From Hyphomicrobiales bacterium (GTDB taxonomy: Bacteria; Pseudomonadota; Alphaproteobacteria; Rhizobiales; Devosiaceae), in contig WFXU01000076.1 in assembly GCA_015490455.1 (NCBI GenBank), positions 1-50,355 of the forward strand: 50,355 nt of DNA, written 5' to 3'. The position numbers and the translations under genes were made by a program. Under the pieces are notes generated by a model. The model made no database searches. It was not told the DNA's origin and saw only the letters and a program-made list of their open reading frames with translations. Below are positions 14,478 through 32,641 of this stretch, in pieces; position 1 is the first letter of the stretch, and the number at the start of each line of letters is the position of its first letter.

Positions 14478-14521
14478 CGCGTATCCTTTCATATTAGTCA
14501 AAAGAAATCCACGCCCTCCTC

Positions 14522-14598
14522 TGTTTTAGCAATGCTAAAACCGACAGGTTTGTAAAAAACCTCGGGTGCGCCCACATTTCGTAAATAAATATACGAAT
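14522..14598 (-). promoter_or_regulatory. Hairpin-rich 5' leader of rpsD
   Basis: Three perfect inverted repeats occupy the rpsD leader. They are GTTTTAGC/GCTAAAAC (14523-14541), AGGTTT/AAACCT (14546-14562) and TTCGTA/TACGAA (14578-14597). S4 is a translational autoregulator in several bacteria, so a structured leader could be the target. No match to a named S4 leader motif is claimed. Confidence 0.4.
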
Positions 14599-14611
14599 AA
14601 TAGGTGTGCGG

Positions 14612-14640
14612 GTTTTATGTTGGAATTAAATTTAAGTCAA
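14612..14640 (-). promoter_or_regulatory. Promoter of rpsD
   Basis: On the minus strand TTGACT (14640-14635) and TAAAAC (14617-14612) are separated by 17 bp, a good housekeeping-type promoter. Transcription would start near 14605, giving a leader of about 128 nt. It diverges from the moaA promoter region. Confidence 0.5.
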
Positions 14641-14692
14641 GTGGATATATTTCTCTTCCCATATGGAAAATTATTAGGTTAAATATTTCTGC

Positions 14693-14706
14693 TTGATCTA
14701 TATCAA
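14693..14706 (+). promoter_or_regulatory. FNR/Anr-type box before molybdenum cofactor operon
   Basis: TTGATCTATATCAA is a perfect match to the FNR-family palindrome TTGAT-N4-ATCAA. A plausible -10 (TAGTAA, 14731-14736) would place the start near 14743, with the box centred at about -43, close to the class II activator position (-41.5). TATGAT at 14724-14729 is an alternative but slightly too close. It implies induction of the operon at low oxygen, or by a related FnrL/FixK-type regulator. The palindrome has no direction; rpsD diverges about 55 bp away. Confidence 0.65.
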
Positions 14707-14818
14707 TTCTAAAAATGCTTCGCTATGATGTAGTAAAGTTACTCTAAAGCCCTCTATCCTAAGTTTTTCACTAATGAAAAATATGGATTTTGGGCCGGGG
14801 TTGCGAAGGGGGTCACCC

Positions 14819-14902
14819 TTTGGGGCTGTCTTTTGGAAACTACCCTTTGAGAGCCGCCCTTTGGGGGCTACTCTTTAGGGGCTAGCCTTTAGCGGAAACG
14901 CC
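14819..14902 (+). repeat. 14-bp tandem repeat array in moaA leader
   Basis: Six imperfect units begin with TTT at 14819, 14832, 14846, 14860, 14874 and 14888, so the period is 14 bp after a 13-bp first step. The best units are TTTGGGGGCTACTC and TTTAGGGGCTAGCC. The last contains a GCG-GAAA-CGC tetraloop hairpin. It is far richer in G+C than the surroundings and lies between the predicted transcription start and the moaA ribosome site. A role as a regulatory RNA is possible but unproven. Confidence 0.6.
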
Positions 14903-14933
14903 GCAATCTCCCGTGTTTGGAAAGGAGTTGATT

Positions 14934-16061
14934 GTGAAATATATAGATTCTAATAGCCAAAATATTAAGGGGCATGGGGGTGGGTGTGCTTTAGGGCTTA
15001 AGGGGCAGAATAAGGCTGGAGCACAAGGGAATATTGGCGTTGAGACAAGAGCTGATATTAGCGCAAGTAGTAGCAATTCTACAATTTCATTAAGCGATAG
15101 ATTTGGAAGAAACTTCCCCTATCTAAGATTATCCATTACCGATATATGTAATTTTAGCTGCGATTATTGCCTGCCGGATGGCTATAAAAAATGTAATAAA
15201 ATTTCTCCCCTATCTCTAAACGAAATAAGACGATTAATTGATGTCTTTACAAAATTAGGAGTAAATAAAGTCCGCCTTAGCGGGGGGGAACCAACTTTAA
15301 GAAAAGATTTTATTGCCATTGTTAAAATGATTGCTAATAATCCCGCGATTAAAACTTTGGCTCTTACCACTAATGGTTATAAATTGGCGCAAAATGCTGA
15401 AAAATGGCGAAGGGCTGGCATAACTAATATAAATATTAGTATTGATAGTCTTAATGAGCAGCGTTTCTTTGCTATTACCGGCCATAACCGACTTAAAGAA
15501 GTGCTATTAGGGGTTGAAAAAGCAATTAAAGCCGGCTTTAACAGAGTAAAAATAAATGTGGTTCTGTTACAAAACATAAATGATGGTGAATTTACCGATT
15601 TTCTCGCACTTGCCAAAGAAAAACCAGTTACTATTCGCTTTATTGAATTAATGCAAACGGGCGAAAATTTGGCCTATTTTAAGAAATTTCACATTTCTTC
15701 TAGAGAAATAAAAGAGCAGCTAATTGCAACAAATTGGATAATAAAAAAACGCCCATTTAATGCAGGGCCTGCACAGGAATTTATCCATGCAGATTATAAA
15801 GGCTCCATAGGAATAATAGCGCCCTATGGAAAAGATTTTTGTAAAAGCTGTAACCGTTTGCGCGTAAGCGCAAAGGGTGATTTACATTTGTGCCTATTCG
15901 GTAAAAAGGGCATTGCTTTACGTCACTTATTGCAAGATGATGAACAAAAAGAGCAATTATCCAAGCTAATTTGTTCGCAATTAGCCTTCAAATGTTCGTC
16001 CCACTTTTTAGCCTTTGGCGATAGTGGAATTACCCCCCATCTTGCTTCAATTGGTGGATAA
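14934..16061 (+). CDS. moaA: GTP 3',8-cyclase MoaA
   Basis: Radical SAM enzyme that starts molybdenum cofactor synthesis by cyclising GTP. The N-terminal [4Fe-4S] motif is Cys72-x3-Cys76-x2-Cys79. The C-terminal cluster motif is in 'FCKSCNRLRVSAKGDLHLCL', and the protein ends in the essential Gly-Gly. I chose GTG at 14934 because AAAGGAG lies six bases upstream; an upstream GTG at 14913 lacks such a site. The first 53 residues form an unusual Gly/Ser/Asn-rich extension without a Met. First gene of a nine-gene cofactor operon; the next gene starts immediately after the stop. Confidence 0.93.
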   Translation: MKYIDSNSQNIKGHGGGCALGLKGQNKAGAQGNIGVETRADISASSSNSTISLSDRFGRNFPYLRLSITDICNFSCDYCLPDGYKKCNKISPLSLNEIRRLIDVFTKLGVNKVRLSGGEPTLRKDFIAIVKMIANNPAIKTLALTTNGYKLAQNAEKWRRAGITNINISIDSLNEQRFFAITGHNRLKEVLLGVEKAIKAGFNRVKINVVLLQNINDGEFTDFLALAKEKPVTIRFIELMQTGENLAYFKKFHISSREIKEQLIATNWIIKKRPFNAGPAQEFIHADYKGSIGIIAPYGKDFCKSCNRLRVSAKGDLHLCLFGKKGIALRHLLQDDEQKEQLSKLICSQLAFKCSSHFLAFGDSGITPHLASIGG

Positions 16062-17114
16062 ATGAAACAAAATATGAAAGATTTTTTTACCCAAAGCAAA
16101 TATCACATGGCCGATATTACGCGTAAAAGCCCTTCTTTTCGGCGCGCTATTGCAATGGGGCAAATTGAGGTTGGTAAAATTGGCTTCAAACATATAAATG
16201 AGAAAACTTTGCCAAAGGGAGATATATTAAATTTAGCTGAAATTGCCGGCGTTCAGGGCGCAAAAAATGCCTGGCAGCAAATTCCTCTTTGCCATCCGCT
16301 TTTATTGGATCATATAGCTGTTTTTCTTGAATTAGATAAAGACATAAATTCTATTTTTGCCTACTCAATCGTTGCTACAACTGCCAAAACCGGCGTAGAA
16401 ATGGAGGCTCTAGCGGCCGTAAATGCTGCCCTTTTAACCATTTACGACTTAACCAAACCGGTTGAACCTGCATTAACCATTAAGAATATCCGCCTTTTAA
16501 TAAAGGAGGGAGGCAAAAAAGGGCTTTGGGTTCATCCAGATGGCATTCCCAAAAAATTACAGCAATTCTTACCTTCTAAACCAAAACAGCCCCTTAAAGG
16601 GATAAAAAGCGCCATAATTACATTAAGCGATAGGGCTTATAATAAACAATATGAAGATAAATCTGGCAAAATATTAAATGAAAATTTACATTTCCTGGGC
16701 GCTAAAATAATAGATTATTCTATTTTGCCAGATGAAAAAAATCTTCTAAAGGAAAAAATATTTGAGTTAACCAAAAAAAAAGTAGATTTAATAATCACAA
16801 CTGGGGGCACGGGTCTGGCCAAACGCGATATTACTCCGCAAACCATTACTGAATTAGAACATATAGCGGTAGATGGGATTGGTGAATTATTACGATCCTC
16901 CAGCGCCTCCTTTGTTCCCAATTCATGGTTGAGCCGTTCTATGGCCGCAATTATTGGCAATTCCCTTATAATTTGCCTACCCGGCAGCTCTGGCGCCGTA
17001 AAAGATGGAATAGAAATATTAAAACCTATTCTTCCCCACGCTTTGGCACATATAAGGGGCGATAAAAATTTGCATAATGAGGCAAAAAATGGGGAAGAAA
17101 ATGATTGCCTATGA
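16062..17114 (+). CDS. moaC: Fused MoaC-MogA/MoaB protein
   Basis: A 350-residue fusion. Residues about 10-165 are MoaC (cyclic pyranopterin monophosphate synthase): 'YHMADITRKSPSFRRAIAMG', 'IPLCHPL' and 'GVEMEALAAVN'. Residues about 182-340 are a MogA/MoaB domain (molybdopterin adenylyltransferase): 'ITLSDRAYNKQYEDKSG' and 'TTGGTGLAKRDITPQT'. One polypeptide thus joins an early and a late step; such fusions are known in some lineages, but separate genes are the norm in alphaproteobacteria. Starts directly after the moaA stop; its end overlaps moeA by 14 bp. Confidence 0.92.
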   Translation: MKQNMKDFFTQSKYHMADITRKSPSFRRAIAMGQIEVGKIGFKHINEKTLPKGDILNLAEIAGVQGAKNAWQQIPLCHPLLLDHIAVFLELDKDINSIFAYSIVATTAKTGVEMEALAAVNAALLTIYDLTKPVEPALTIKNIRLLIKEGGKKGLWVHPDGIPKKLQQFLPSKPKQPLKGIKSAIITLSDRAYNKQYEDKSGKILNENLHFLGAKIIDYSILPDEKNLLKEKIFELTKKKVDLIITTGGTGLAKRDITPQTITELEHIAVDGIGELLRSSSASFVPNSWLSRSMAAIIGNSLIICLPGSSGAVKDGIEILKPILPHALAHIRGDKNLHNEAKNGEENDCL

Positions 17115-18333
17115 GGAAGCGCTAAAAATTATTTCGCAAAATGAGAGGCAAAAATTAATTAAATTGCCAATAGTAAAATCGCTAAATTTTATAGCCGGTG
17201 AAAATATAAAAAGTAAAGTTTTTGTGCCACCATTTAATAATTCGGCAATGGATGGTTTTGCAATTAATGCTTCTGATATTGCAAAAGCTACGAATAATAA
17301 CCCAATAGCTCTAAGGCTGACAGGCAGAATTATGGCGGGCGAAAAAACCTCCAACCTACAAGGGGGAGCATTAGAAATAATGACTGGCGCAATTGTGCCG
17401 GCCAATTATGATAGTGTGGTAAAAATTGAAGATGTAAAAATAAAAGAAAATAAGGTAATTTTTACTTCCGCAGTAAAGCTAGGCAATAATATTCGCCAAA
17501 GGGGGGAAGATTTTAAGCCCGGCAATATTGTAGTAAAAAAAGGAGAATTAATAAAACCTTCTCATATCATGGCTTTGGCAACTATCGGACAGGAAAATAT
17601 TTTAACCTATAAAAAGCCAAAAATATTGTTGATTTCAACCGGTAAAGAACTAACAGACGAGCTTGCTACTTCTCTTTTAGAAGGGCAAATCCGCAATTCC
17701 AACGCGCCCTATATTTTAGCGGCACTTAAAAAAATGGGCTATAGTGCAAAATATGGCGGTATTATTCGTGATAATATAGAAAAATTCGGCGAAAAAATAG
17801 CAAATTCCATTGAAAAAAATAATTTAATAATTTCAACCGGCGCCGTTTCTATGGGCAAAATGGATTTTATTCCCGATATTCTGTTGGAAATGGGAGCAAA
17901 AATATTATTCCATAAAGTTTTTATTCGTCCCGGCAAACCCATTCTTTACGCCCGTTTTGCAAATGGCACTCACTATTTTGGCTTACCTGGCAATCCTATT
18001 TCTGCCGCTGTTGGATTAAGGTTTTTTGTCCTCCCACTATTAGCTCATATTGAGGGAAGAAATATTTTATCCTCCAGCCTTAGTCGCCCCTTAATAGCAA
18101 AATTAGAGCAATCATATCCCAAAAAGCAGGGATTTAGGTTTTTCCTAAAAGCCAAAGCCCATATTGATAAAGAGGGAGGGATTAAAGTTAAAATTTTAAG
18201 CGGGCAGCAATCTTTCAAAATACACCCATTATTAGAGGCAAATTGCTGGGCTTCTCTATCTCCCAAACAAAAGGGAGAAAGGGGGGAAAAGGTAGAAATT
18301 TATCCATTGATAAGTGAAAATTGGGAATTATGA
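17101..18333 (+). CDS. moeA: Molybdopterin molybdenumtransferase MoeA
   Basis: Inserts molybdate into adenylylated molybdopterin. Family motifs: 'NNSAMDGFAI' near residue 50, 'TGAIVPANYDSVVKIED', 'LLISTGKEL' opening the central MogA-like domain, and 'GLPGNPISA' in the active-site region. The 410-residue length is standard. I chose ATG at 17101, behind GGGGAAG, rather than the ATG 24 bp upstream. It overlaps the end of the moaC-mog gene and the start of moaD (ATGA), indicating translational coupling. Confidence 0.93.
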   Translation: MIAYEEALKIISQNERQKLIKLPIVKSLNFIAGENIKSKVFVPPFNNSAMDGFAINASDIAKATNNNPIALRLTGRIMAGEKTSNLQGGALEIMTGAIVPANYDSVVKIEDVKIKENKVIFTSAVKLGNNIRQRGEDFKPGNIVVKKGELIKPSHIMALATIGQENILTYKKPKILLISTGKELTDELATSLLEGQIRNSNAPYILAALKKMGYSAKYGGIIRDNIEKFGEKIANSIEKNNLIISTGAVSMGKMDFIPDILLEMGAKILFHKVFIRPGKPILYARFANGTHYFGLPGNPISAAVGLRFFVLPLLAHIEGRNILSSSLSRPLIAKLEQSYPKKQGFRFFLKAKAHIDKEGGIKVKILSGQQSFKIHPLLEANCWASLSPKQKGERGEKVEIYPLISENWEL

Positions 18334-18593
18334 AAATGAAAATAAATTTACAAACTTTTGGCCCCTTCAGAACTTTAGGAGAAAATATTGAACTAGAAAT
18401 GAGGGAAGGAGAGAAAATATCATCTATTAGGGGCGAATTAAAAAAATATATTAAAAAACACCATCCCTCTTTTGCAAATATTAAACTCATAAATAGCTCG
18501 CATTTTGCCAATGAAAGCGAAATTTTGGCGGAGGAATATATTTTAGCGGAGGGAGATATTATTACAATAATTCCTCCAGTTGCGGGAGGGTAA
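18330..18593 (+). CDS. moaD: Molybdopterin synthase small subunit MoaD
   Basis: Ubiquitin-like sulfur carrier; its C-terminal Gly-Gly is adenylated by MoeB, loaded with sulfur and used by MoaE to make the dithiolene. The 87-residue protein ends 'DIITIIPPVAGG', exactly as required. ATG at 18330 overlaps the moeA stop (ATGA). A second ATG two codons later is also possible. The protein is unusually Lys-rich, in line with the AT-rich codon use of the whole operon. Confidence 0.92.
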   Translation: MKMKINLQTFGPFRTLGENIELEMREGEKISSIRGELKKYIKKHHPSFANIKLINSSHFANESEILAEEYILAEGDIITIIPPVAGG

Positions 18594-18594
18594 A

Positions 18595-19074
18595 ATGGGG
18601 GAAATTTTTGTAGATATTTATCCTATAGATAAAAAACCACTAAATATTATGGAGGGGCTAAATTTTGTCAGTAAAGCGCCAAATGGGGCTGAAATATTAT
18701 TTATTGGCACTGTTCGCATTCTTAATCAGGGCAAAAAAGTATTAGCAGTCAGCTATGATGTCTTTACCCCCTTAGCCAAAAATTCCTTTTTGCAAATAGC
18801 TAAGGAAACACAGGAAAAATGGGGGGATAATCTGGATATTTATATTGTGCATGCTAAGGGGCGCCTAAATGTTGGGGGGATTAGTATTATTATTGGTGTT
18901 GGCTCCCCTCATCGCGATGAAGCATATAGGGCTAGCCGATATATTATTGAACAAATAAAGCACCGCTCACCAATCTGGAAATTAGAACATTATGAAAATG
19001 GTGATAGTGAATGGAGCAAGGGGTGTGAATTATGCACTGGCGAATATAAAGTAAATGGGCAGTTTGATGAATAA
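18595..19074 (+). CDS. moaE: Molybdopterin synthase large subunit MoaE
   Basis: Catalytic subunit that transfers two sulfurs to cyclic pyranopterin monophosphate. Diagnostic segments: 'GAEILFIGTVR' near residue 29, 'VHAKGRLNVGG', 'SPHRDEAYRASRY' and the active-site loop 'IKHRSPIWKLEHYENG'. ATG at 18595 is two bases after the moaD stop and has GGGAGGG four bases upstream. The C-terminal extension 'CELCTGEYKVNGQFDE' has two cysteines not typical of MoaE. Confidence 0.93.
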   Translation: MGEIFVDIYPIDKKPLNIMEGLNFVSKAPNGAEILFIGTVRILNQGKKVLAVSYDVFTPLAKNSFLQIAKETQEKWGDNLDIYIVHAKGRLNVGGISIIIGVGSPHRDEAYRASRYIIEQIKHRSPIWKLEHYENGDSEWSKGCELCTGEYKVNGQFDE

Positions 19075-19636
19075 AATTTGCGCAGCAATTTTAGCCGGTG
19101 GCAATTCAAAACGGATGGGAGAAGATAAGGCAAAATTACCGTTTGCAGGGCAGACCCTCCTAGATCATATGGTAAAATTAGTTAAAAAAAGCAATATTGA
19201 AAAAATATTCATCTCGGGGCCAGATAATATTAAAGATATAATTAAAAAACGCGGCCCGCTAAGCGGAATTCATGCAATTTTATCCTCCATTGATAATATA
19301 TATGAATATATTTTATTTGTTCCCGTTGATATGCCAGAGCTTCAACCAACCATAATTGATAAATTACTAAGGGAAACCAATAGCTATCATTTAATTAAAT
19401 TTGAATATCAGCAAATGCCCTTTTTATTGCAAAATAACAGGGATATTTTGGAGCTTTTGGAAAAAATTCTAAAGGAAGGTGAGAATTTTTCACTTAGTTT
19501 TTTTCACGCGCAAATAAAGAGGCAAAAACAATTAAAACTACTACCTAAAGAGCGTATATATTTTAACAATATAAATTATAAAGCTGAGTGGGATGAATTT
19601 TTAAGAAATAGGAAAAATAATGAATTTACATATTGA
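19067..19636 (+). CDS. mobA: Molybdenum cofactor guanylyltransferase MobA
   Basis: Attaches GMP to Mo-molybdopterin, yielding the MGD needed by DMSO-reductase-family enzymes such as the oxidoreductase at 23841-26516. The nucleotide-binding N-terminus is 'AAILAGGNSKRMGEDKAKLP'; the metal-binding 'VPVDMPEL' follows about residue 90. The protein is 189 residues. The start overlaps moaE by 8 bp; an in-frame ATG at 19055 is an alternative. Its presence ties this operon to a bis-MGD enzyme. Confidence 0.9.
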   Translation: MNKICAAILAGGNSKRMGEDKAKLPFAGQTLLDHMVKLVKKSNIEKIFISGPDNIKDIIKKRGPLSGIHAILSSIDNIYEYILFVPVDMPELQPTIIDKLLRETNSYHLIKFEYQQMPFLLQNNRDILELLEKILKEGENFSLSFFHAQIKRQKQLKLLPKERIYFNNINYKAEWDEFLRNRKNNEFTY

Positions 19637-19955
19637 TGGGCAAAAATTACGCTTTCGCCTAACAAAAGCCGAATTAGAAAAATTATGTAATAAAAAAAAT
19701 ATTAAGCAAAAAATATTTTTGCCAGAGCAAAATATTATTTCAATCAATATTAATATTCAGCCACAAGAAGAAAATCTCATTTTTACTTTTATAAATAATA
19801 ATTTTCATCTGGCAGTAAATGAATGGGCCGCTAAAAATCTTTATAATTCCTTACCGAGCAAAGAAGGAATTAGGGTAGAGCAAAAAATAGATGAAAATAA
19901 TATTTTAACTCTGCTTTTAGAAGTTGATATTCGCACACAAGGTCGCATTAAATAA
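19620..19955 (+). CDS. Small conserved protein in cofactor operon (DUF7009-like)
   Basis: A 111-residue soluble protein of unknown function. The N-terminus 'MNLHIDGQKLRFRLTKAELE' resembles a family of small proteins starting 'MKIRIKGNSLRLRLTKSE', which I believe is DUF7009; I am not certain of the number. It overlaps mobA by 17 bp and its stop overlaps the moeB start (TAATG), so it is translated as part of the cofactor operon. A role in molybdenum cofactor handling or enzyme maturation is inferred from context only. Confidence 0.7.
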   Translation: MNLHIDGQKLRFRLTKAELEKLCNKKNIKQKIFLPEQNIISININIQPQEENLIFTFINNNFHLAVNEWAAKNLYNSLPSKEGIRVEQKIDENNILTLLLEVDIRTQGRIK

Positions 19956-20713
19956 TGGATAATGAACAGCTAAATCGTTATGTGCGCAACATTACCCTTC
20001 CGGAAATTGGTGAGGAGGGACAGGGAATTTTATTAAAATCTAAAGTTTTAATAATTGGTGCTGGCGGGCTTGGCTCTCCCCTTGCTCTTTATCTTGCTAG
20101 TGCCGGCATTGGCACAATTGGTATAGTTGATAATGATAAAGTTGATATTTCAAATTTACAGCGGCAAATTATTTATAAAACTTTAGATATTGGGAAAAAA
20201 AAGCCACTTGCCGCCAAAGAAAGAATTTTGGAATTAAACCCAAATATAAATATTTTTGCGCATAATTTGCGCCTTAACGAAAATAATATAGATGAAATAA
20301 TCAAATTTTATGATATTATTGCCGATGGCAGTGATAATTTTGCTACTCGTTTTACCGTTAATAATGCCTGTTTTAGACATAAAAAGCCCCTTATTTCAGC
20401 AGCGGTGACCGGCTTTATAGCGCAAATTTACTCCTTTAAGCCATATTTAGACGCGCTCCAACCTTGCTATCAATGTATTTATGAAAAATTGCCCGACCGG
20501 AATGCAACCCCAAATTGCATAAATTTTGGTGTTTTGGGCTCTGTTGCCGGCATTGCCGGAAGCTGGCAGGCAAGTGAAATAATAAAGGAAATATTAAATA
20601 TTGGACAATCATTAGCTGGGCATATGCTGGTAATTGATGCTCTTTACGCAAATATAAAGAAGGTAAAAATCAATAAAAATCCCAATTGCCCCTGCTGCAA
20701 TATGGGGAAATAG
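19955..20713 (+). CDS. moeB: Molybdopterin-synthase adenylyltransferase MoeB
   Basis: E1-like enzyme that adenylates the MoaD C-terminus. The ATP-binding loop is 'LIIGAGGLGSPLALYLASAG' (about residues 32-51), with 'RQIIY' and 'DGSDNFATRF' downstream. Zinc-binding cysteine pairs are in 'CYQC' and 'CPCC'. At 252 residues it lacks the C-terminal rhodanese domain of longer MoeBR proteins. ThiF and HesA share the fold, but the position after moaD/moaE favours MoeB. Confidence 0.88.
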   Translation: MDNEQLNRYVRNITLPEIGEEGQGILLKSKVLIIGAGGLGSPLALYLASAGIGTIGIVDNDKVDISNLQRQIIYKTLDIGKKKPLAAKERILELNPNINIFAHNLRLNENNIDEIIKFYDIIADGSDNFATRFTVNNACFRHKKPLISAAVTGFIAQIYSFKPYLDALQPCYQCIYEKLPDRNATPNCINFGVLGSVAGIAGSWQASEIIKEILNIGQSLAGHMLVIDALYANIKKVKINKNPNCPCCNMGK

Positions 20714-20714
20714 G

Positions 20715-21455
20715 GTGGGGTTAGGAATATTATTCTTTATTGTCGCCATATTTTACGCCAGCGTTGGCTTTGGTGGCGGCTCTTCCTATTTAGCATTATT
20801 GGTTTTATGGGATGTTCCCTATATAATTATCCCAATAATTGCACTAATTTGTAATATTATTGTTGTTTCCGGAAATAGTTTTCACTATATTCGCGCTGGT
20901 TTTCTAAAATGGCGCCTTTTTCTTCCCCCGACCATCTCCTCTGTTCCCTTTGCCTATTTTGGCGGCAGGTTAAAAATAGAGGAAGATATTTTTATCATTA
21001 TATTATTTTTGACCTTACTGATAACCGGCCTAAGAATGTTATTTAGCTTTCGCCAATTTGCGATAAAAAAAGATAAATATAAAAATATCCCCCTTTGGCT
21101 TGGTTTGTTAGTCGGTGCAATTTTGGGATTTATCTCCGGCATAGTTGGAATAGGGGGAGGTATTTTCCTAGCGCCAATATTATATTTTTTTCGCGCCGGA
21201 TCACCCAAAGAAATTGCTGCTAGCGCCTCTCTTTTTATTTTGGTAAATTCTATTTCTGGTCTAAGCGGGCAATTACAGAAAAACGGGCTCTCAGAAGAAA
21301 TTTTATCCTTTTGGTATTTGCCTTTTTTGGTATTGATTGGCGGGCAAATTGGCAATATTTTAACAGTAAAAATAATCCCTCAACAAATTATAGCCCTATT
21401 TACGGCATTATTAGTTTTGTTTGTAGCTGCGCGTTTGGCGCTGATTATTATCTAG
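20715..21455 (+). CDS. TauE/SafE-family anion exporter
   Basis: A 246-residue inner-membrane protein with about eight hydrophobic helices. The two internally repeated signatures of the family are visible: 'FYASVGFGGGSSYLALLVLW' near the start and 'GFISGIVGIGGGIFLAPILY' in the second half. Family members export sulfite, sulfoacetate or other organic or inorganic anions. It starts with GTG one base after the moeB stop and is the last gene of the cofactor operon. Its stop shares the CTAG at 21452-21455 with the convergent HEAT-repeat gene. A role in anion or sulfur handling linked to the reductase is only inferred. Confidence 0.82.
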   Translation: MGLGILFFIVAIFYASVGFGGGSSYLALLVLWDVPYIIIPIIALICNIIVVSGNSFHYIRAGFLKWRLFLPPTISSVPFAYFGGRLKIEEDIFIIILFLTLLITGLRMLFSFRQFAIKKDKYKNIPLWLGLLVGAILGFISGIVGIGGGIFLAPILYFFRAGSPKEIAASASLFILVNSISGLSGQLQKNGLSEEILSFWYLPFLVLIGGQIGNILTVKIIPQQIIALFTALLVLFVAARLALIII

Positions 21456-23743
21456 AGTAAATTATTTAACATCTCAAGGGCTAATAACCTTTTGCTTCCT
21501 TCCTCCTCATCAAGCAAAACTTCAATTACTGCAAATGCATGCTCTTTATGTTGCTTGAGTAAATCGCTGGCAATTTTCTGATGCACCCCATTCTCTACAA
21601 AAGCAAAGGCAACAAGAGTGGGAACAGCTATCTCGCTAGCTTCATCAACAAGAGAATTGGCCGCCGCAACCCTGGTTAAACGCCCTGCTTTAAGTGCCAA
21701 ACTAGCCAAATCAATCTTAACATCACGCCCCCTTAGCGCTTTTATTGCTTCGGATTGCACAATATCGCTTTTTGCTTCTTTGGCCAATTTGATAAGCAAT
21801 TTGCTGGCTAAATTTGTGTTTATATATCCTATTGCCCTAACGGCTTTATAATCCAATGATTTTTCACCCATTGTTGCATGGCGAAATAATAATTTTTCAT
21901 AATTAGATATATCTATGCCGGCTTTAGCTAACTTAATAAGCCCTTCTATTGCTGCACTAAGCAATCCTTCTTCTCTTTGCTCAAGTAAATTACCAAGCGG
22001 TTCAAGCAGCTCTTTTCTGCCCGTTTCTGCACCAACCAACGCAGCCAAGCGCCTTACATCAATATGAGCGGGTGTTCTATCAATCGGATTTACCCTTTTA
22101 CGCTTGATAAGTTGCGCCCCACTAATTTCTAAAAATTCAATATCTTCTTTTTCAATTTTAATTTTTTCCTGGCTAATTGCCTTAATAGTGCTAGTTGCCA
22201 TAATTGCATCAAGCGTAGAAAGGGGCGGCCTTATTTCTTTTTCTTCCTCATTTTCTATATTTTCCTTTATATTATCGCCGGCAGGCTCTTCACTATCACT
22301 ACTCTCTTCAATAATATTGCCGTCCCTATCAATTCTGATCTTATATTCATCCTGCTCTAATTCTTCATCATTTACTCTAAGTTTTCTTTGCTCCTCAAAA
22401 TCAATAATATTGTCATTTTTTGCCTGCCAGTCTTCTGGCACCTCAACCAGCTCTCCTTCAATTGCCGATATTAAAATATCTAGCGCCTTTTCCCCTAATT
22501 CCCCCTTAGTTTTAGCAATTTTTCCAAGTGAATTGACGGCCATAAGACGAATTTCAAAATTTTCGCTTCCACAGGCAGCAGCACAAATGGAAATAGAATT
22601 ATCGCTCTTTAGCTCACCTAAAGATCTGATAGCGGCAAGTTTGACTTTTCCTGTAGTAGAATTATTAGTCGCAATATCCTCAATAAATTCCACCGCTCCC
22701 TTTGGCCTGGCTATAGAAATTGCCAAAAGAAAGTCAGAAAGGGTCTTTTGGCTTTGTTCATCATTTTTTCGCAATAATTTTTGTGCTCTTGATATTAAAT
22801 CCAATTTGGGGCGGATTTTATTTTGCCTGATAATTATTTCACAAGCAGCCCGTTGAACTTTTGGCGAATAATCGTCCAAAGCTATGGCCAAAACTTCATC
22901 TGAAATATTATCAAACTCATTTAATGTTCTTATTCGCACATTAATTGAAGCATCTTCCAGACCCAAAGAAGCAATTTCATGCATATTTAACCTGGCAGCA
23001 GAGCTTATCGCTGCTTCACGCACCCCCGCATCCGGATCTTTCATCGCAGCCTTTATTAATTCTTTGCTTAAATCATCTTTAGCCTCTCTAAGCGCCGAAA
23101 TTATACGCCTACGATTTTTACTATTGGCCGCTCCAATAAGTTCAGTTAACGCCCTTATGCCGGGCTGACCAAATTGCACCAATATTTTTACAGCCAAAGG
23201 CCAAACATCTTGCCCATCACTATCATTCATAGCGGTTATTATTGAACTTATGGCTTTTTCTTTATCTATTTTATCAGCCAGCTCTCCCAGAGTTTTAATA
23301 GCGGCTAATTGCACATCAAGCCAGTCATCCCAGCCTGAACCATCTTCTTCCCAAATAATATTTTCTTCTTCACCGCGCGAATAGGCTAAAATAGATAATA
23401 TATTTGCAGCCTCATAAGCCTTTAAGGATCTTAAGGCTTCAACATAAAGAAGTTTGGCTTCACCAACGGGATCCTGAACTAAATTCTCAATTAAAATAGG
23501 AATTGCCCTTTTATCCTGCAAAATAGAAAGCGATTTTGCACAATCACACCTTACATCAACATCTGGATTACGTAATTGCTCTAATAATATTGAAATTGTT
23601 TCCTCTTGCGGGAAATGAGCAAGCGCCTGAACCACCAAACATTGTTCAACATCAGAAATTTTATCTATCATCGCTCGCAATTGAGCACCAATTTTTTGTT
23701 CTTGTTGTTCTATTTTTTGTTTTTTGTGCATTAACTTGGTCAT
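21452..23743 (-). CDS. HEAT-repeat protein, last gene of idr operon
   Basis: A 763-residue soluble protein built of HEAT/PBS-lyase-like helical repeats, for example 'EETISILLEQLRNPDVDVRC', 'AIPILIENL' and 'GELKSDNSISICAAACGSEN'. The array is interrupted at about residues 455-535 by an acidic, probably disordered segment rich in Glu and Asp. There is no signal peptide, so it is cytoplasmic. Such scaffolds bind partner proteins; an assembly or cofactor-insertion role for the adjacent oxidoreductase is my inference. I chose ATG at 23743; an in-frame TTG at 23752 is possible. It follows idrA by 97 bp. Confidence 0.8.
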   Translation of the reverse strand: MTKLMHKKQKIEQQEQKIGAQLRAMIDKISDVEQCLVVQALAHFPQEETISILLEQLRNPDVDVRCDCAKSLSILQDKRAIPILIENLVQDPVGEAKLLYVEALRSLKAYEAANILSILAYSRGEEENIIWEEDGSGWDDWLDVQLAAIKTLGELADKIDKEKAISSIITAMNDSDGQDVWPLAVKILVQFGQPGIRALTELIGAANSKNRRRIISALREAKDDLSKELIKAAMKDPDAGVREAAISSAARLNMHEIASLGLEDASINVRIRTLNEFDNISDEVLAIALDDYSPKVQRAACEIIIRQNKIRPKLDLISRAQKLLRKNDEQSQKTLSDFLLAISIARPKGAVEFIEDIATNNSTTGKVKLAAIRSLGELKSDNSISICAAACGSENFEIRLMAVNSLGKIAKTKGELGEKALDILISAIEGELVEVPEDWQAKNDNIIDFEEQRKLRVNDEELEQDEYKIRIDRDGNIIEESSDSEEPAGDNIKENIENEEEKEIRPPLSTLDAIMATSTIKAISQEKIKIEKEDIEFLEISGAQLIKRKRVNPIDRTPAHIDVRRLAALVGAETGRKELLEPLGNLLEQREEGLLSAAIEGLIKLAKAGIDISNYEKLLFRHATMGEKSLDYKAVRAIGYINTNLASKLLIKLAKEAKSDIVQSEAIKALRGRDVKIDLASLALKAGRLTRVAAANSLVDEASEIAVPTLVAFAFVENGVHQKIASDLLKQHKEHAFAVIEVLLDEEEGSKRLLALEMLNNLL

Positions 23744-23798
23744 ATCACTCAATCAGTTGGGCATTATTTAGTTAGTTTACAGCCTTAGCCAATTTGTC

Positions 23799-23840: not shown

Positions 23841-26516
23841 TTAAACTATGTCACGCCTTGCAAATGACATGGAACGGAAATCATTTTTATAAGGGGAAAC
23901 ACCAATTTTCTTAATTTTACCAACACCCATTTTATAATTATAATTACCACTTATCCAATCTACCACCCTGCCATTTAGGGAATTAGCTGGTTGAGCAGTA
24001 TGGAGGAAATCCATATACATTACCCCTTTTTTCAAAGCAGGAGTAATAATCGCCACAGCGCTAATTGCGGCCTTTGTTAATTTTATATGACCATTTTCCA
24101 TTAATTTAGTGAAGGTAAAATCATCACCCTCAACGCCTTTAATACTATCAACTTGAACGGGTATGCGATCGGAATAAACCATTACATAATCACCGCTTTC
24201 AATTCCCCTTTCTTTTGCGTCTTCCGGATGAATTTCTACCCAGTTTTCAGGCCAGCGCTGCACAATATATGGACGGCGCCTATCATCATATCCTGATTGC
24301 CATCTCTCATTAATACGGCCAGAACTTGCCCATAATTCACCCTCTCTTGGTTTTAGCCATTCCCAATAATCGGAGAATAATGACCAGGGGGCTTTTTGAA
24401 TATTAGTTTTACCGGTTTGTGTATTAAAGTGAGTTAGTTTTTTATTGAACATATTAGCCGCAGCCGGTCCGGTTTCTGGTAATTTACGGGTAGTATCATG
24501 CAAACGCTTTGTTCCTTCAAGCGTTCCATCTTCTTTCATAAATACCGGCCCCTGTATACCATCAGTTCCATATTGGGCAAATTTCTCATGCAATGTTATG
24601 CCTTCTTTCTTGGCGGCCACATAAAGCATATAGAAATCTTTTCTTGAGCCACGTGAAAAACGAGCGGCCTGCTCTAATACATCATTAGAATTTTCCCAAT
24701 CAAAACCGTCAAAGCCCATTCTTTTTCCTAATTGCGCCATAATCCACCAATCAGGTTTGGCTTCACCCGGAGCATCATAAAATTTCGGATATAACCTTAG
24801 ACGGCGTTCACCATTGGCGCGAGTAAAACTATCTTCACCCCAGCCAGCGGCAGGAAGCACAATATCGGCATAGCGCGCACCAATTGGATCCACTAAATAA
24901 ATATCCTGGTTAATAACTACTGTGCCGCCACTATCAACACGTTTTTTAAGTGTCTCTATAATTTCCTGCTTATCAAAAGAACTTATTTGATGTTCATTTT
25001 GCACGGTTAATTCTTCAAATTTTTCGGCTAAACTTTGTGAAGCACACATGGCCTGAATCCAGGTTGCTCCAACAACATGGGCTAAACGTGTGTGCCCGCT
25101 TACAAAATAACGATCTGTATCCATAGCCCTACGACGGCGACCTGGTAATTTTTCTGGTGACTTATTACGCGGATATTTACCACCACCAAGACCACCACGC
25201 TGGTGCCCACCGGCGCGCCCAATTACCTGACCCGGACGCCCCCCTGCACCAATTATTATACCAAGTGAGGAAATAGCATTTGTATTGCCAGTATTATTTG
25301 ACCAATAAAACCCCTTTTCAATCATGATAGAAGATTTTGGCCTTGAGCCATCGGCTCTTGGTTTAGCTAGCCATTCGGCTGCCTTATATATTTTTTTGAC
25401 ATCAATTTGCGCAATTTTTGCAGCCTTTTCAGGAATAGAAAAATCCTGCGCTAATAGCCACTTCTTCCAATCCTCATAGCCTTTGGTTTGGAATTTACCC
25501 CAAGTTGTGCGCCACTGCCACGGAGTATTACGTGTGCCCTGACCAAAACCTGAGGAGCTTTCAAATTTATTATTAACCCAATTTTTTATCCATTCCTTAT
25601 CTTCCCAACCATTTTCTACAATCACACGTGCAATTGCAGAGACAACCGGAAGATCTGTTCCGGGCAATAAGTCAATCCATAAACCGCCATTTTGTTCAGC
25701 ATAGGCAATGCCCGCCGTGCGGCGTGGCCCTAAAAATATGGTTTTTTGCCCATTTTGAATTGCAGGCATAATCCATTGAGTAAATAAAATAGTTTTTGTT
25801 TCATAAGGATCTGTTCCGCAAATCATTAATGTTTCAGCATCGTGCCAATCCTGATAAGAGGGGGCAAAATTATCAAAACCGGCATCTCTAAATCCCGGAG
25901 TTGAAGTAACATTGCTTGGCGTATCATGAAAGGTGAAATTCGCGGTTGCAATATGCCTTAAAGCATATTTGGTAACCGCATAAGTATTCTCCATAAAGCC
26001 ATAGGAATACATTTTCATACTATATGCATTTTCACCGTGATTTCTAATCACATAATCGGTGATTTCAGCCGCAATATCCAGTGCAAAATCCCAGCTTACT
26101 GGCATTAAAGTTCCAAACATTCTTATCATTGGAGAATGTAACCTATCGCGGGTTGGGCTTTGCGGATTATAGAGTTTTTGCGCAATCGCCCCGCCCCGAA
26201 TAGAACTATCACCATTTATATTTACGGTTGTATTATCTTTATCAGGGATAATAATAACGTGATGCGGTTCATTATTGTGCATCACAATATTATATTGGTT
26301 TGGCGCAACCCAAGCGCCCAATGTCGCAACGGGAAAATCTTGATTAAACGCATTCTCCTCAGCCTTTGGGCCGCCAGTTTTACCACTCTTAACAGGCCAG
26401 CGATAAACTTTGTAACCGCAGGCCACAATGCAATAATCGCAAGCTGTTGAAATAATATCCGCATCTACCGGTGGTAGCGGAATATTGGTTTCAGGAATAT
26501 AATAAGGAGTTCCCAT
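23841..26516 (-). CDS. idrA: Iodate reductase catalytic subunit IdrA (AioA/IdrA family)
   Basis: An 891-residue periplasmic bis-MGD oxidoreductase of the DMSO reductase family. The N-terminal cluster motif is Cys26-x2-Cys29-x3-Cys33, with Ser105 at the fourth position, so a [3Fe-4S] cluster as in arsenite oxidase. Of the four arsenite-site residues of AioA (His195, Glu203, Arg419, His423), the equivalents here are His197, Ser205, Arg434 and His438. Loss of the Glu, and the two adjacent cytochrome c peroxidase genes, point to iodate reductase rather than arsenite oxidase. There is no signal peptide; it should leave by Tat with its Rieske partner. I chose ATG at 26516, behind GAGGGTGAG, over the TTG at 26531. 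Confidence 0.85.
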   Translation of the reverse strand: MGTPYYIPETNIPLPPVDADIISTACDYCIVACGYKVYRWPVKSGKTGGPKAEENAFNQDFPVATLGAWVAPNQYNIVMHNNEPHHVIIIPDKDNTTVNINGDSSIRGGAIAQKLYNPQSPTRDRLHSPMIRMFGTLMPVSWDFALDIAAEITDYVIRNHGENAYSMKMYSYGFMENTYAVTKYALRHIATANFTFHDTPSNVTSTPGFRDAGFDNFAPSYQDWHDAETLMICGTDPYETKTILFTQWIMPAIQNGQKTIFLGPRRTAGIAYAEQNGGLWIDLLPGTDLPVVSAIARVIVENGWEDKEWIKNWVNNKFESSSGFGQGTRNTPWQWRTTWGKFQTKGYEDWKKWLLAQDFSIPEKAAKIAQIDVKKIYKAAEWLAKPRADGSRPKSSIMIEKGFYWSNNTGNTNAISSLGIIIGAGGRPGQVIGRAGGHQRGGLGGGKYPRNKSPEKLPGRRRRAMDTDRYFVSGHTRLAHVVGATWIQAMCASQSLAEKFEELTVQNEHQISSFDKQEIIETLKKRVDSGGTVVINQDIYLVDPIGARYADIVLPAAGWGEDSFTRANGERRLRLYPKFYDAPGEAKPDWWIMAQLGKRMGFDGFDWENSNDVLEQAARFSRGSRKDFYMLYVAAKKEGITLHEKFAQYGTDGIQGPVFMKEDGTLEGTKRLHDTTRKLPETGPAAANMFNKKLTHFNTQTGKTNIQKAPWSLFSDYWEWLKPREGELWASSGRINERWQSGYDDRRRPYIVQRWPENWVEIHPEDAKERGIESGDYVMVYSDRIPVQVDSIKGVEGDDFTFTKLMENGHIKLTKAAISAVAIITPALKKGVMYMDFLHTAQPANSLNGRVVDWISGNYNYKMGVGKIKKIGVSPYKNDFRSMSFARRDIV

Positions 26517-26527
26517 GATTCTCACCC

Positions 26528-27109
26528 TCAACCTTTCAAATTATCATAACGGCCATAAATTAGGCCAAACATACCGACGGCATAAATATCATCTCCATCA
26601 AGCTCCAACAGAACCTGTGGCAGGCTCTGATATGCCTGACCGGAAATGAACATTCCATGCCGAGTTAAGTCAAATGTAGTCAAATGTAACGGACAGGGGC
26701 CAAGCGCTTTATCATCCGGCTTATATGTGCCATTTAATGGACCACCCTGATGGGTGCATGTATAGTTAAACGCAACCACATCTTTATCAGGCCCGATGCC
26801 GCCACCTGCCTCTTTTCCTAATTTAACAATCATTGAATCTGAATATTCACCCTCATCAGGATAGGAGAAGTCCAGCGGCTCATCCAATTTTAATTCAGAT
26901 AGTTTCGCAATTAATTTTCTGGGATAGCTCGCAACAACCGCCGGGACTTTTGCTAATCCCTCACTTGTTTGCATCGCAATCATTACCGTTGCCGTAGCAA
27001 TTCCTGAAGTTAACAGAAAGGTGCGTCGGTTAATGATACATTTTTTTGAATTTTTACGAACTTCCTCAGGACCATTAATAGCCTCTATCATTTCATTATT
27101 CGCTATCAT
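26528..27109 (-). CDS. idrB: Rieske subunit IdrB
   Basis: A 193-residue [2Fe-2S] subunit that passes electrons to the molybdenum subunit. A Tat signal lies at residues 27-50: twin Arg28-Arg29 in 'NRRTFLLTSG', followed by a hydrophobic stretch. Cluster ligands are Cys118, His120, Cys139 and His142 (CTHQGG and CPLH). The two extra cysteines that form a disulfide in most Rieske proteins are absent. ATG has an ideal AGGAGGAAAT upstream. It ends 11 bp before the idrA ATG. An AioB-type Rieske is the alternative name; the context favours IdrB. Confidence 0.87.
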   Translation of the reverse strand: MIANNEMIEAINGPEEVRKNSKKCIINRRTFLLTSGIATATVMIAMQTSEGLAKVPAVVASYPRKLIAKLSELKLDEPLDFSYPDEGEYSDSMIVKLGKEAGGGIGPDKDVVAFNYTCTHQGGPLNGTYKPDDKALGPCPLHLTTFDLTRHGMFISGQAYQSLPQVLLELDGDDIYAVGMFGLIYGRYDNLKG

Positions 27110-27125
27110 TATTTCCTCCTACTGT

Positions 27126-28268
27126 TCAATTTGCAGCTGCTGCAAGCGGCTCTGTTGGTGGAAGGTCCGGATAGTCCATCAAAATAGGTTCGCCTGAAAG
27201 ACTTTCTAAGAAGGCAAGCAAATCAGCCTTTTCCTCTTCGCTCAGACCCAATGGATATATTAAATCTGTCTTGGTTTCAGCAAATTCATTAGTGCCACCA
27301 CCCTGATTGTAAAATTCAATTACATCTTCAAGTGTGGCAATCATTCCATTGTGCATATATGGCGCTGTATATTTGGTATAGCGTAATGAAGGCACACGGA
27401 ATTTGCCAAGATCTGCTTCTTCCTTAGTGCGGAAATAAAGACCCGGATCGTCCTTAAATTTACGATATTTATCCTCTGTAACGCCCTTAGCATAAAGCTC
27501 AAATCTAAAAGTAATTTGCGCAAGCGCGTCATTCTCCCAGCCATCATAGGCCGGAACACCAATATTATAATATTTCTGGTTGGTTAATAGCGCGCCCGAA
27601 TGGCAAGTGGCACAATTTGCTTTGCCCACAAATAGATCCAAGCCCCGCTTTTGCGCTTCCGTTAGAGCATTATCATCACCGCGCATATAATTATCAAAAG
27701 GCGTATCAGTTTGCACCAAAGTCCTTTCAAAAGCGGCTATAGCGCGATAAGCATTACGAACATTTGGCCATCTATCGCCAAATACTTCATTAAAACGTCT
27801 GACATATTCGGGGACAAGCGCTAATCTTGCTTCCATCCCATCATCTTCGCCATTTCCGGCAACACCACCCCGAGCAGCTGATCTGGCCTGCGCCTCTAAA
27901 GAACCGGAGGAGCCATCCCAGAATAATTTATTATAATAGGCTGAATTAATAATGGTTTGCGAATTACGCCAATGAACTGTTCCGGGATAACCTAAAGAAA
28001 TTTTATCCGGAAAGTCCCACCCCTCATCCGGTATATGGCAAGCCGAACATGGCATAGAGCCATTACCCGAAAGACGGCCATCAAAAAACAGCATTTTACC
28101 CAATTCCACCTTTTCGGGAGTTGTTGGATTATCTGCGGGATTTGGCGGTTCACCTAAAGGAGCAAGCACGCTAGGGCGCTCCCCAGCTATGGCACCCAGC
28201 GGCGCTAATAGCGAAGTTGCAACCAGAGCAACAGCAGTGAGGGTAGAGAATTTTCTAAAATTTATCAT
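27126..28268 (-). CDS. idrP1: Di-heme cytochrome c peroxidase, IdrP1 type
   Basis: A secreted c-type cytochrome of 380 residues. A Sec signal peptide (residues 1-28, ending 'APLGAIA') precedes two CxxCH heme sites: CSACH at 74-78 and CATCH at 219-223. A conserved 'TAPYMHNGMIATLEDVIEFY' segment lies near the C-terminus, as in the bacterial CcpA/MauG family. In the iodate reductase model such peroxidases remove hydrogen peroxide or reactive iodine species formed next to IdrA. ATG at 28268 is preceded by GGAGAGG; a longer frame upstream has no ribosome site. The number 1 is assigned only by adjacency to idrB. Confidence 0.85.
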   Translation of the reverse strand: MINFRKFSTLTAVALVATSLLAPLGAIAGERPSVLAPLGEPPNPADNPTTPEKVELGKMLFFDGRLSGNGSMPCSACHIPDEGWDFPDKISLGYPGTVHWRNSQTIINSAYYNKLFWDGSSGSLEAQARSAARGGVAGNGEDDGMEARLALVPEYVRRFNEVFGDRWPNVRNAYRAIAAFERTLVQTDTPFDNYMRGDDNALTEAQKRGLDLFVGKANCATCHSGALLTNQKYYNIGVPAYDGWENDALAQITFRFELYAKGVTEDKYRKFKDDPGLYFRTKEEADLGKFRVPSLRYTKYTAPYMHNGMIATLEDVIEFYNQGGGTNEFAETKTDLIYPLGLSEEEKADLLAFLESLSGEPILMDYPDLPPTEPLAAAAN

Positions 28269-28281
28269 AATCAACCTCTCC

Positions 28282-29412
28282 TCAATTTTTCTTGTTAAGC
28301 CAATCGGCAATTACTGTGTAATCAGTGTCAAATTCGCCTGGATTATAGGCGGGAACATCAAAACTATTTCCTGACAAAGATTTTAGGAATTCAACCAGAT
28401 CGGCCTTTTCCCCTTCGCTCAAATTAAGCGGCTTAATTCTTTCATCCTTATTTGCGGACTGGCCACCACCCCTATTATAAAAATCAACTACTTCTTCTAA
28501 AGTAGCAATGGTGCCATTATGCATATAGGGAGCTGTATAGGTGAGCTCACGCAAGGTTGGGGTTATAAATTTACCCTTATTCTCCTCTTTGAGATCTACT
28601 ATATAAGCGCCTAAATCCTGGCGAAGATTCATATAATTTTCTATGCCTTGAAATTTAGCAAAAGTAATGAATGTTACGTGCCTATCAGGGTCTGACCAAA
28701 TTTCCGGATTTTCAGGAACCCCGATATTATAAGCCTTATCATCGGTAAAACGATTGCCAGAATGGCAAGAAACGCAACCTGCCTTGCCTGTAAATAGTTC
28801 AAAGCCCCTTTTTGCGGAATCCGACATATCACCACTATCAAAAGGCGCCCCGCTTGAAGTAATTGTTTTCAAAAATGCCTCAATTGCCGAACGGGCTCCA
28901 CCATTTGAAGGCTCGCCCTTACCTGCCTTTGCAAACATTTCAACATAAACAGGATCCTGCTTTAGACGTTCCTGCATAATGCGCATATCCATATTCATAA
29001 AATAAGTTTCAGTAATGGATTCGCGCGTTACATCATTTAGATTTGTGCCCAATCTCCCATCATGAAACCAGACAGAGCGGTGACCAACATTGGCCAAAGT
29101 TGGCACATTTCTAAAATGTTTCGTATCCGCATATGCATCTGAAAGAGCCTGCCCATCAGTAAAAGCCTTGTCCGGCTGATGACATGAAGCACATGCTAAC
29201 CCCGTATCTCCTGACAGGCGATTGTCATAAAATAAACGTTTTCCCAATTCTGCTAATTCTTCCTTGACCTCAATTTGCTCTATTGGTCCATATTTTTGTG
29301 AGCCATATTCTTGCGCGGCAGAGGGAGTTGCTAAGTAAGAAAAAGCAAAAACTAAAGCCAACAAACTTATAGTTGGGTCTTTATAATCTGTTATTCGCAA
29401 AATTTTTTTCAT
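28282..29412 (-). CDS. idrP2: Di-heme cytochrome c peroxidase, IdrP2 type
   Basis: First gene of the operon: a 376-residue secreted di-heme peroxidase paralogous to the next gene. Signal peptide about residues 1-33 (ending 'TPSAAQ'). Heme sites are CASCH at 74-78 and CVSCH at 213-217; the C-terminal 'TAPYMHNGTIATLEEVVDFY' is shared with the paralogue. ATG at 29412 follows AAAGGAGATATC, an excellent ribosome site; the extra 26 codons upstream are unlikely to be translated. The 13-bp gap to the next gene indicates one transcript. Which of the two corresponds to IdrP1 or IdrP2 of described strains needs a tree. Confidence 0.85.
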   Translation of the reverse strand: MKKILRITDYKDPTISLLALVFAFSYLATPSAAQEYGSQKYGPIEQIEVKEELAELGKRLFYDNRLSGDTGLACASCHQPDKAFTDGQALSDAYADTKHFRNVPTLANVGHRSVWFHDGRLGTNLNDVTRESITETYFMNMDMRIMQERLKQDPVYVEMFAKAGKGEPSNGGARSAIEAFLKTITSSGAPFDSGDMSDSAKRGFELFTGKAGCVSCHSGNRFTDDKAYNIGVPENPEIWSDPDRHVTFITFAKFQGIENYMNLRQDLGAYIVDLKEENKGKFITPTLRELTYTAPYMHNGTIATLEEVVDFYNRGGGQSANKDERIKPLNLSEGEKADLVEFLKSLSGNSFDVPAYNPGEFDTDYTVIADWLNKKN

Positions 29413-29504
29413 ATGATATCTCCTTTTGCGCTCAAAAGCGAATGGGCAAATTCCGACCGAAACACCCGCCCACTTACTTTCACGACTCACAATTTAAGGA
29501 AGAG

Positions 29505-29574
29505 ATGTAACGTCAATATTTCGCTGAAGGTCACAAATTATGAAGAAATGTAACAAAATATTACAAAATGTAAC
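29505..29574 (-). promoter_or_regulatory. Tandem 10-bp boxes upstream of idr operon
   Basis: On the minus strand three head-to-tail decamers occupy 29574-29545: GTTACATTTT, then GTAATATTTT, then GTTACATTTC. A further CGTTACATCTC lies at 29511-29501. Direct repeats one helical turn apart are the binding mode of OmpR/PhoB-family regulators, and an OmpR-family regulator is encoded 2.3 kb away. The boxes lie 133-162 bp before the first start codon; a TTGACG near 29517 could be a weak -35. Confidence 0.55.
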
Positions 29575-29601
29575 TTTGGTAATCAGAACTTTAGGCTAGG
29601 A

Positions 29602-31842: not shown

Positions 31843-31856
31843 TTGATTTATATCAG
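31843..31856 (+). promoter_or_regulatory. Near-perfect FNR-type box between kinase and regulator
   Basis: TTGATTTATATCAG matches TTGAT-N4-ATCAA at nine of ten defined positions. It lies in the 103-bp divergent region. For the regulator gene, an AGATAA at 31881-31886 would place the start about 43 bp from the box centre, the same geometry as at the moaA box. For the kinase the box is too close to the ATG to act as a class II site. Confidence 0.5.
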
Positions 31857-31912: not shown

Positions 31913-32641
31913 ATGAGTGAACATATACTTATTGTTGATGATGATTCGCAAATAACTTCTTTTCTAAAGAAATATTTAGAAAAGCAAGGTTTTATAGCAA
32001 GTTGTGCCGGGACGGGGCGGGAAATGCGCTCTATTTTAGATAGAGAAAAAGTAGATTTATTGGTGCTTGATGTTGGTCTTCCTGATGCTAATGGGTTTGA
32101 AATAACCCAAGAAATTAGAAAAAATTCCAATTTGCCAATAATTGTTTTAAGCGCACGTAATGAATCTTATGATAGAATATTCGGTCTGGAATTTGGTGCC
32201 GATGATTATGTTACAAAGCCATTTGAACCGCGTGAATTTATTGCGCGAATCCGCTCGGTTTTGCGGCGAGCAAAATTGGAGCATCTTGCAGCAATTAAAG
32301 TAAATAAGAAAGCACATTTATTGCAATTTGGCCAATGGATAATGAATCTTAATGAAAGAACAGTTATAAATTCAGATAGTAAAAGAGACGCAAATCTTAC
32401 CTCGATGGAATTTGACTTACTAAGAGTATTAGTTGAACAGCCACGCATGGTGCTAAACCGCGATCAATTGCTTGATAGGGCGCGCGGATTTAATGCGATA
32501 GTGGGTGATAGAACTATTGATGTGCATATAATGCGCCTACGGAAAAAAATTGAGCCAGACCATCGCCATCCTACCTTTATTAAAACAATTCACGGTATTG
32601 GCTATTGTTTTTCTGGCGATGTAACACAGTATAAAAATTAG
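31913..32641 (+). CDS. OmpR-family response regulator
   Basis: A 242-residue regulator. The receiver domain (1-120) has the acidic cluster Asp9-Asp11, phospho-acceptor Asp53 (LVLDVGLPDANGFE) and Lys102 (DDYVTKPF). The winged-helix DNA-binding domain (about 135-235) has 'LTSMEFDLLRVLVEQPRMVL' and 'DRTIDVHIMRLRKKIEPDHR'. ATG at 31913 follows GGGAG; an upstream in-frame ATG at 31856 would start inside the promoter region. Divergent from the hybrid kinase, its probable partner. The gene converges with the TPR gene, leaving four bases between them. Confidence 0.9.
   Translation: MSEHILIVDDDSQITSFLKKYLEKQGFIASCAGTGREMRSILDREKVDLLVLDVGLPDANGFEITQEIRKNSNLPIIVLSARNESYDRIFGLEFGADDYVTKPFEPREFIARIRSVLRRAKLEHLAAIKVNKKAHLLQFGQWIMNLNERTVINSDSKRDANLTSMEFDLLRVLVEQPRMVLNRDQLLDRARGFNAIVGDRTIDVHIMRLRKKIEPDHRHPTFIKTIHGIGYCFSGDVTQYKN

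Follow-up and report, generated by a model that had tools for sequence, protein, structure and literature searches.

Predicted FnrL-type activation and a Moco-family riboswitch upstream of the molybdenum cofactor operon in a likely iodate-reducing member of the Hyphomicrobiales

The DNA analyzed here, referred to as the window, is a 50,355-nt stretch from a Hyphomicrobiales bacterium whose genome assembly (G000) comprises 2.02 Mb in 81 contigs and is 97.95% complete. Its forward strand carries nine molybdenum cofactor (Moco) genes (14934–21455) that overlap or abut throughout, in agreement with an earlier note on this DNA that had described them as a cofactor operon. The first gene, moaA (14934–16061), has a GTG start and matches the Pfam families Radical_SAM and Mob_synth_C. 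It is followed by a moaC-moaB fusion (16062–17114; NF002947, 329 bits, above the cut-off of 285), moeA (17077–18333; Pfam), a moaD-like gene (18321–18593) whose 30.3-bit match to TIGR01682 is under the cut-off of 66.15, moaE (18580–19074; Pfam), and a gene for a MobA-like nucleotidyltransferase (19055–19636; Pfam NTP_transf_3). The last three genes encode a DUF7009 protein (19620–19955; Pfam PF22668, with no NCBIfam match), a MoeB/ThiF-type adenylyltransferase (19955–20713; Pfam ThiF, with MoeB models as the best NCBIfam matches, below cut-off), and a TauE/SafE permease (20715–21455; Pfam TauE). Membership in this operon makes a cofactor-related role a candidate for the DUF7009 family.

Only one MoaA was counted in G000, and the moa operon is therefore the sole recognized source of cofactor there. 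In addition to the iodate reductase-type (Idr-like) enzyme described below, this single operon must supply at least two molybdoenzyme candidates, a formate dehydrogenase/DMSO reductase-like protein and a xanthine dehydrogenase-family protein. Since the latter is presumably useful when oxygen is present, some aerobic expression of the operon is expected.

The presumed customer for the cofactor is encoded nearby on the reverse strand (23841–29490), where likely idrA and idrB genes occur together with genes for two di-haem peroxidases. The cluster combines an AioA-like large subunit and a Rieske subunit with two di-haem peroxidases, as do the idrABP1P2 clusters of PMC8692401 and PMC11445184, and the large and small subunits both pass arsenite oxidase models. 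Genes resembling idrA are present in all five members of the genus, and the moa and idr genes share a contig in three of them (G000, G001, and G004). A gene for a HEAT-repeat protein (21452–23752 in the window) also adjoins idrA in all five members.

Upstream of moaA, in the 456-bp gap that separates it from the divergent rpsD gene, lies the palindrome TTGATCTATATCAA (14693–14706, forward strand, centered at 14699.5). The assertion that this is a perfect FNR-type box was borne out: it has the TTGAT-N4-ATCAA operator form, fits TTGATNNNNATCAA at 10 of 10 defined positions, and is the sole exact match to that pattern within the window. Orthologous moaA genes, with 61–65% identity over long matches, were found in two further members of the genus, G001 and G004, the latter with two copies (G004-C41 and G004-C42). 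In all four of these riboswitch-type upstream regions, a box is located exactly 34 nt before the ACUCU of the RNA. The G001 box is TTGATCCAAATCAA, that of G004-C41 is TTGACCTACGTCAA, which takes the form TTGAC-N4-GTCAA, and that of G004-C42 is TTGATCCAACTCAA, which has one core mismatch. G001 and G004-C42 are closely similar, and the lineages were therefore counted as three. One of the two G004 regions (L051 and L050) has the window's synteny and the other that of G001, and on the same contig as L050 an IdrA match (in L097) is split across two frames.

The operator of a class II promoter is centered at -41.5. The earlier note placed the box at nearly this distance from a plausible -10, a geometry that needs slight adjustment: the obvious hexamer, TATGAT (14724–14729, forward strand), probably the one meant, implies a box at -36.5, whereas an overlapping extended -10 (TGA then TGTAGT at 14726–14734, forward strand, 22 nt after the box) gives exactly -41.5. 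From this -10 position and the fold of aptamer helix P1 (see below), we infer a transcription start at 14741, the first base of P1. The counterparts of the extended -10 in the relatives are TGT-TGTAAT, TGA-TCTAGT, and TGT-TGTGAT, and the T, G, T, T, and T of the pattern TGn-TnTnnT are unchanged across all four moaA upstream regions. A search of 14480–14960 yielded no sigma-70-type -35/-10 pair, which suits a promoter dependent on an activator. A clean -10 at class II distance is not seen at every other box of the genus. Apart from the geometry, the proposal that the box controls the cofactor operon fared well, with its position, its conservation, and a matching FnrL all strongly supporting an FNR-type activator.

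A rival reading is that FnrL represses the operon, with the TATGAT promoter in use and the box, at -36.5, lying over its -35 and blocking polymerase. TATGAT is indeed the better -10 hexamer, and it occurs in two of the four regions (G000 and G004-C41); however, G001 and G004-C42 lack it, all four regions have the extended -10 pattern at class II distance, and no -35 partner was recognized. Repression at this promoter is thus improbable, and activation by FnrL is the preferred reading.

A candidate for the activator is encoded in the same genome. FnrL proteins of the iron-sulfur type have four cluster cysteines and an E..SR recognition helix. G000 encodes a Crp/Fnr-type protein of 242 aa with Cys16, Cys19, Cys27, and Cys115 as well as ETVSR, all of which are invariant in the sequences of the five genus members. 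Its best NCBIfam model is FnrL, but its score against the equivalog NF045989 is 220.7 bits, below the cut-off of 300, and the protein is therefore termed FnrL-type here rather than the Rhodobacter equivalog. The gene adjoins ccoN, which was confirmed by a model in G000 only and assigned by synteny in the other members. Boxes of the TTGAYNNNNRTCAA form occur in all five members both before ccoN and between fnrL and its neighbor (usp by eye), with the fnrL box of G002 lying inside the longest ORF reading. Further boxes of G000 are located upstream of ubiT-ubiU and of a cytochrome c-napC pair. The moaA of G002 and G003, which is canonical in type and not orthologous, shares a perfect box with a divergent ubiT-type gene (confirmed by models for MoaA in G002 and for UbiT in G003). 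That this genus has two unrelated moa operons, each with an FNR box, is the most telling evidence for function and argues that selection keeps the supply of cofactor under oxygen control.

It is also conceivable that a different sensor of the Crp/Fnr family, responding to nitric oxide or resembling FixK, reads the box, as such proteins have the same half-site (PMC4999443), and G002, G003, and G004 each encode a second HTH_Crp_2 match above cut-off. In G000, however, the only HTH_Crp_2 match above cut-off, with two more below it, is the protein with the four cysteines, and the second cNMP-domain protein of that genome has no HTH_Crp_2 match. At 97.95% completeness, the assembly could have missed a Crp/Fnr gene. 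A rival sensor is nevertheless improbable.

An exact match by itself is weak evidence for an FnrL site, because 18 of 100 shuffled windows hold at least one (the chance expectation for the window is 0.20), and it is conservation rather than the match alone that settles that the box is real. Genome-wide, G000 has 13 exact places versus 2 for a reversed-pattern control, and 21 places of the TTGAYNNNNRTCAA form versus 9 for the control. Thirteen of these 21 are within ORFs and eight are intergenic. The eight include one (L002) right at the 5′ boundary of the longest ORF reading, as well as three (L003, L006, and L108) that have no obvious low-oxygen gene adjoining. While the shuffled windows and the intragenic matches would suit a functionless chance palindrome, an exact match arose in only 12 of 20,000 first-order Markov simulations of the rpsD-moaA gap, the surrounding regulon provides a fitting context, and the place and spacing of the box have been kept in three lineages despite diverged flanks. 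In an ungapped comparison of G000, G001, and G004-C41, identity extends to 8 of the 10 defined positions of the box, versus 6 of 50 positions upstream of it and 3 of 19 from the box to the -10. Moreover, among the 30 loci of the best MoaA matches, the upstream box is present in all four from the genus versus 1 of 26 others (L045). A chance origin for the palindrome is therefore very unlikely. Finally, the far-side neighbor of the box varies in the genus (rpsD, a response regulator, or another ORF) while the box stays, from which it follows that the box belongs to moaA; although the palindrome is symmetric and rpsD divergent, action on rpsD instead is scarcely credible, given that G001 and G004 have other upstream genes yet keep the box at moaA, and that the rpsD start is ~200–220 bp from the box with TTTTCC as the hexamer at class II distance.

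A feature that the earlier note overlooked is a Moco-family riboswitch (14741–14928, forward strand, from P1 to P1), which begins at the predicted transcription start. The match to RF01055 (14730–14943) scores 39.8 bits against a gathering score of 36, and the RNAs of two relatives, G004-C41 and G001, are likewise above gathering, the two scores being 47.1 and 46.6 bits. In the minimum free energy (MFE) fold of the window RNA, the 5′ strand of P1 is ACUCU, starting at the predicted transcription start; its partner, GGAGU, includes the GGAG core of the moaA Shine-Dalgarno sequence (AAAGGAG, 14921–14927, forward strand). This fold is modestly better than those of shuffled sequences (z of -2.08, with 8 of 200 as good). 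Among other single-sequence MFE folds, that of L057 resembles the window's, while those of the relatives L018 and L019 are without the P1/P2 layout.

Support for the structure also comes from an alignment of nine RNAs, eight of them distinct, with four from this genus and five from another. Pairs of P1, P2, and P4 form in 99.4% of cells, versus at most 57% for slid versions, a comparison biased in the structure's favor because the structure was derived from one of the aligned RNAs. Eight pairs change on both sides, and P2 and P4 covary; P1 is almost invariant, and covariation thus says nothing about it. One of five measures (further pair types) was not above shuffles, 372 of 500 of which were as high. 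Within the motif, a P3 stem distinguishes the Moco sub-type from the Tuco sub-type, which has none. P4 begins one base after P2, and P3 is therefore read as absent, although the Rfam alignment of the window puts a few pairs in it. P4 itself contains a branched, repeat-rich, multi-hairpin insert (14808–14892), of which ~71 nt (14808–14878) are missing from the aligned relatives. Within the insert are 2.6 copies of a 14-nt unit (14857–14892) and a weak terminator-like hairpin (14856–14868).

Taken together, these features point very probably to a two-layer control of the operon, with class II activation by FnrL at low oxygen and a block of translation by a Moco-family riboswitch when cofactor suffices. 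The box, its spacing, the -10 pattern, the regulator, and the boxes of its regulon are computed features, and what they suggest is that at low oxygen a dimer of [4Fe-4S] FnrL would bind the palindrome at -41.5 and contact RNA polymerase at a promoter with an extended -10 but without a recognizable -35. The resulting transcript, moaA-moaCB-moeA-moaD-moaE-mobA-DUF7009-moeB-tauE, would begin at about A14741, and its leading ~190 nt would be the riboswitch. As to the second layer, the aptamer match and the pairing of P1 with the Shine-Dalgarno sequence in the window were likewise computed, and we infer from them a cofactor ligand and, for both layers, the direction of the response. With ample cofactor, the aptamer would bind its ligand and close P1 on the Shine-Dalgarno sequence of moaA, and translation would stop. 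The operon would thereby act as a gate for "oxygen low AND cofactor short", feeding the neighboring iodate reductase-type enzyme as well as other molybdoenzymes.

Both layers of control are known from the moa operon of E. coli, which has an FNR-dependent promoter as well as a Moco RNA that blocks translation (PMC2408646, PMC10845959), and the present case is therefore a new, well-supported example rather than a new type of system. As in E. coli moaABCDE, FNR-type activation of the operon is predicted here to be followed by a Moco RNA acting on translation. In contrast, E. coli employs two promoters, with the FNR-dependent S2 promoter 87 nt upstream of the ModE-dependent S1 promoter and a ModE site in addition, whereas a single promoter was seen here, with its predicted start at the aptamer's first base. 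Other differences are that the aptamer reads as lacking P3, that moaC and moaB are fused, and that the organism belongs to another bacterial group. The E. coli logic of FNR plus Moco RNA would thus recur elsewhere in a compact form. With respect to the alphaproteobacterial FnrL/FnrN group described in PMC4999443, the regulon shares the four-cysteine regulator beside ccoN and the TTGAYNNNNRTCAA boxes before ccoN and fnrL, but differs in having ubiT and moa as predicted targets. No report of moa as an FnrL/FnrN target, nor of the present moaA promoter, was found among the matches listed from the open-access literature.

The remaining part of the earlier proposal, a tie between the box and iodate respiration, is plausible. 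In favor of it, idrA-like genes are found in all five genus members, three of which have idr and moa genes on one contig, and two studies place iodate reduction under low oxygen: in marine bacteria, formation and activity of Idr as well as iodate reduction itself require oxygen limitation (PMC11445184), and idrA has been found at low-oxygen sites (PMC8692401). Against it, the best box directly upstream of the idr genes in G000 has four mismatches, with none having fewer than four in the gap at 29485–29605. The other molybdoenzyme candidates served by the single moa operon also weigh against the tie, as does the niche proposal of PMC8692401 taken up below. A doubtful FNR-like site with one mismatch, TTGATTTATATCAG (31843–31856, forward strand), is located between the divergent genes for a response regulator (31913–32641, forward strand) and a histidine kinase beside idr; in the matching gaps of G001, G003, and G004, the best counterparts have three to four mismatches. 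A second one-mismatch site occurs at 28261, where the two peroxidase genes meet. A perfect TTGATATATATCAA is also present in G003 (L095:1627–1640), upstream of an ABC transporter-like gene beside the idr cluster.

The predicted circuit provides a concrete wiring for how a likely iodate reducer could match its supply of cofactor to low oxygen. It also bears on the proposal in PMC8692401 that the niche of iodate reducers is one where residual oxygen prevents fnr-dependent expression. If the supply of cofactor in this genus needs FnrL, that idea would fail for the genus unless another promoter serves the operon.

A more speculative idea is that the cofactor made by the FnrL-gated operon is sensed, and perhaps used, as its tungsten form. 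RNAs lacking P3 have been tied to the tungsten cofactor, with tungsten-cofactor genes found in 17 of 19 organisms (Regulski et al., PMC2408646), yet the same work names carriers of such RNAs, e.g., Hyphomonas neptunium, in which no tungsten-cofactor genes are known. What prompts the idea here is the apparent absence of P3 from the aptamer, together with the lack of a ModA-strength match in members with the riboswitch operon. All five genus members encode one PBP_like_2 protein above cut-off. In G002 and G003, which have no orthologous operon, there are ModA-strength matches of 137 and 147 bits, respectively, the former passing TIGR01256; in G000, G001, and G004, whose assemblies are incomplete, there is no such match, with the best at 61–72 bits and that of G000 being ThiB. 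The tungsten reading is unlikely on this evidence. The TauE permease of the Moco operon could be an oxyanion transporter, given the lack of a ModA-strength match in its carriers. Were these ideas true, a tungsten-using enzyme of the iodate reductase type, or TauE in place of ModABC for oxyanion uptake, would be new.

The RNA itself is a member of the Moco/Tuco riboswitch class RF01055, being above gathering and having the conserved core with P1, P2, and P4, and it departs from that class in having no P3 as read here and in the repeat-rich, multi-hairpin insert that the window carries in P4. Hyphomonas neptunium is an alphaproteobacterium. As this species carries a Moco RNA, the RNA is not new to the bacterial group; other carriers include gamma- and delta-Proteobacteria, Clostridia, Actinobacteria, and Deinococcus-Thermus (PMC2408646). 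In a survey of 297 sampled genomes of the order, G000 counted, and with the stricter filters for large searches, RF01055 matches occurred in seven genomes, six of them above gathering. No TTGAYNNNNRTCAA box was found in six Moco-RNA loci outside the genus (~2.3–3.1 kb each, one with an RNA below the gathering score), and the FNR box is therefore not a general partner of the Moco RNA. In another genus, GTGA-N6-TCAC palindromes with a CRP-like core are located upstream of the Moco RNAs (GTGATCTAGATCAC in L057 and GTGACTTAAGTCAC in L058).
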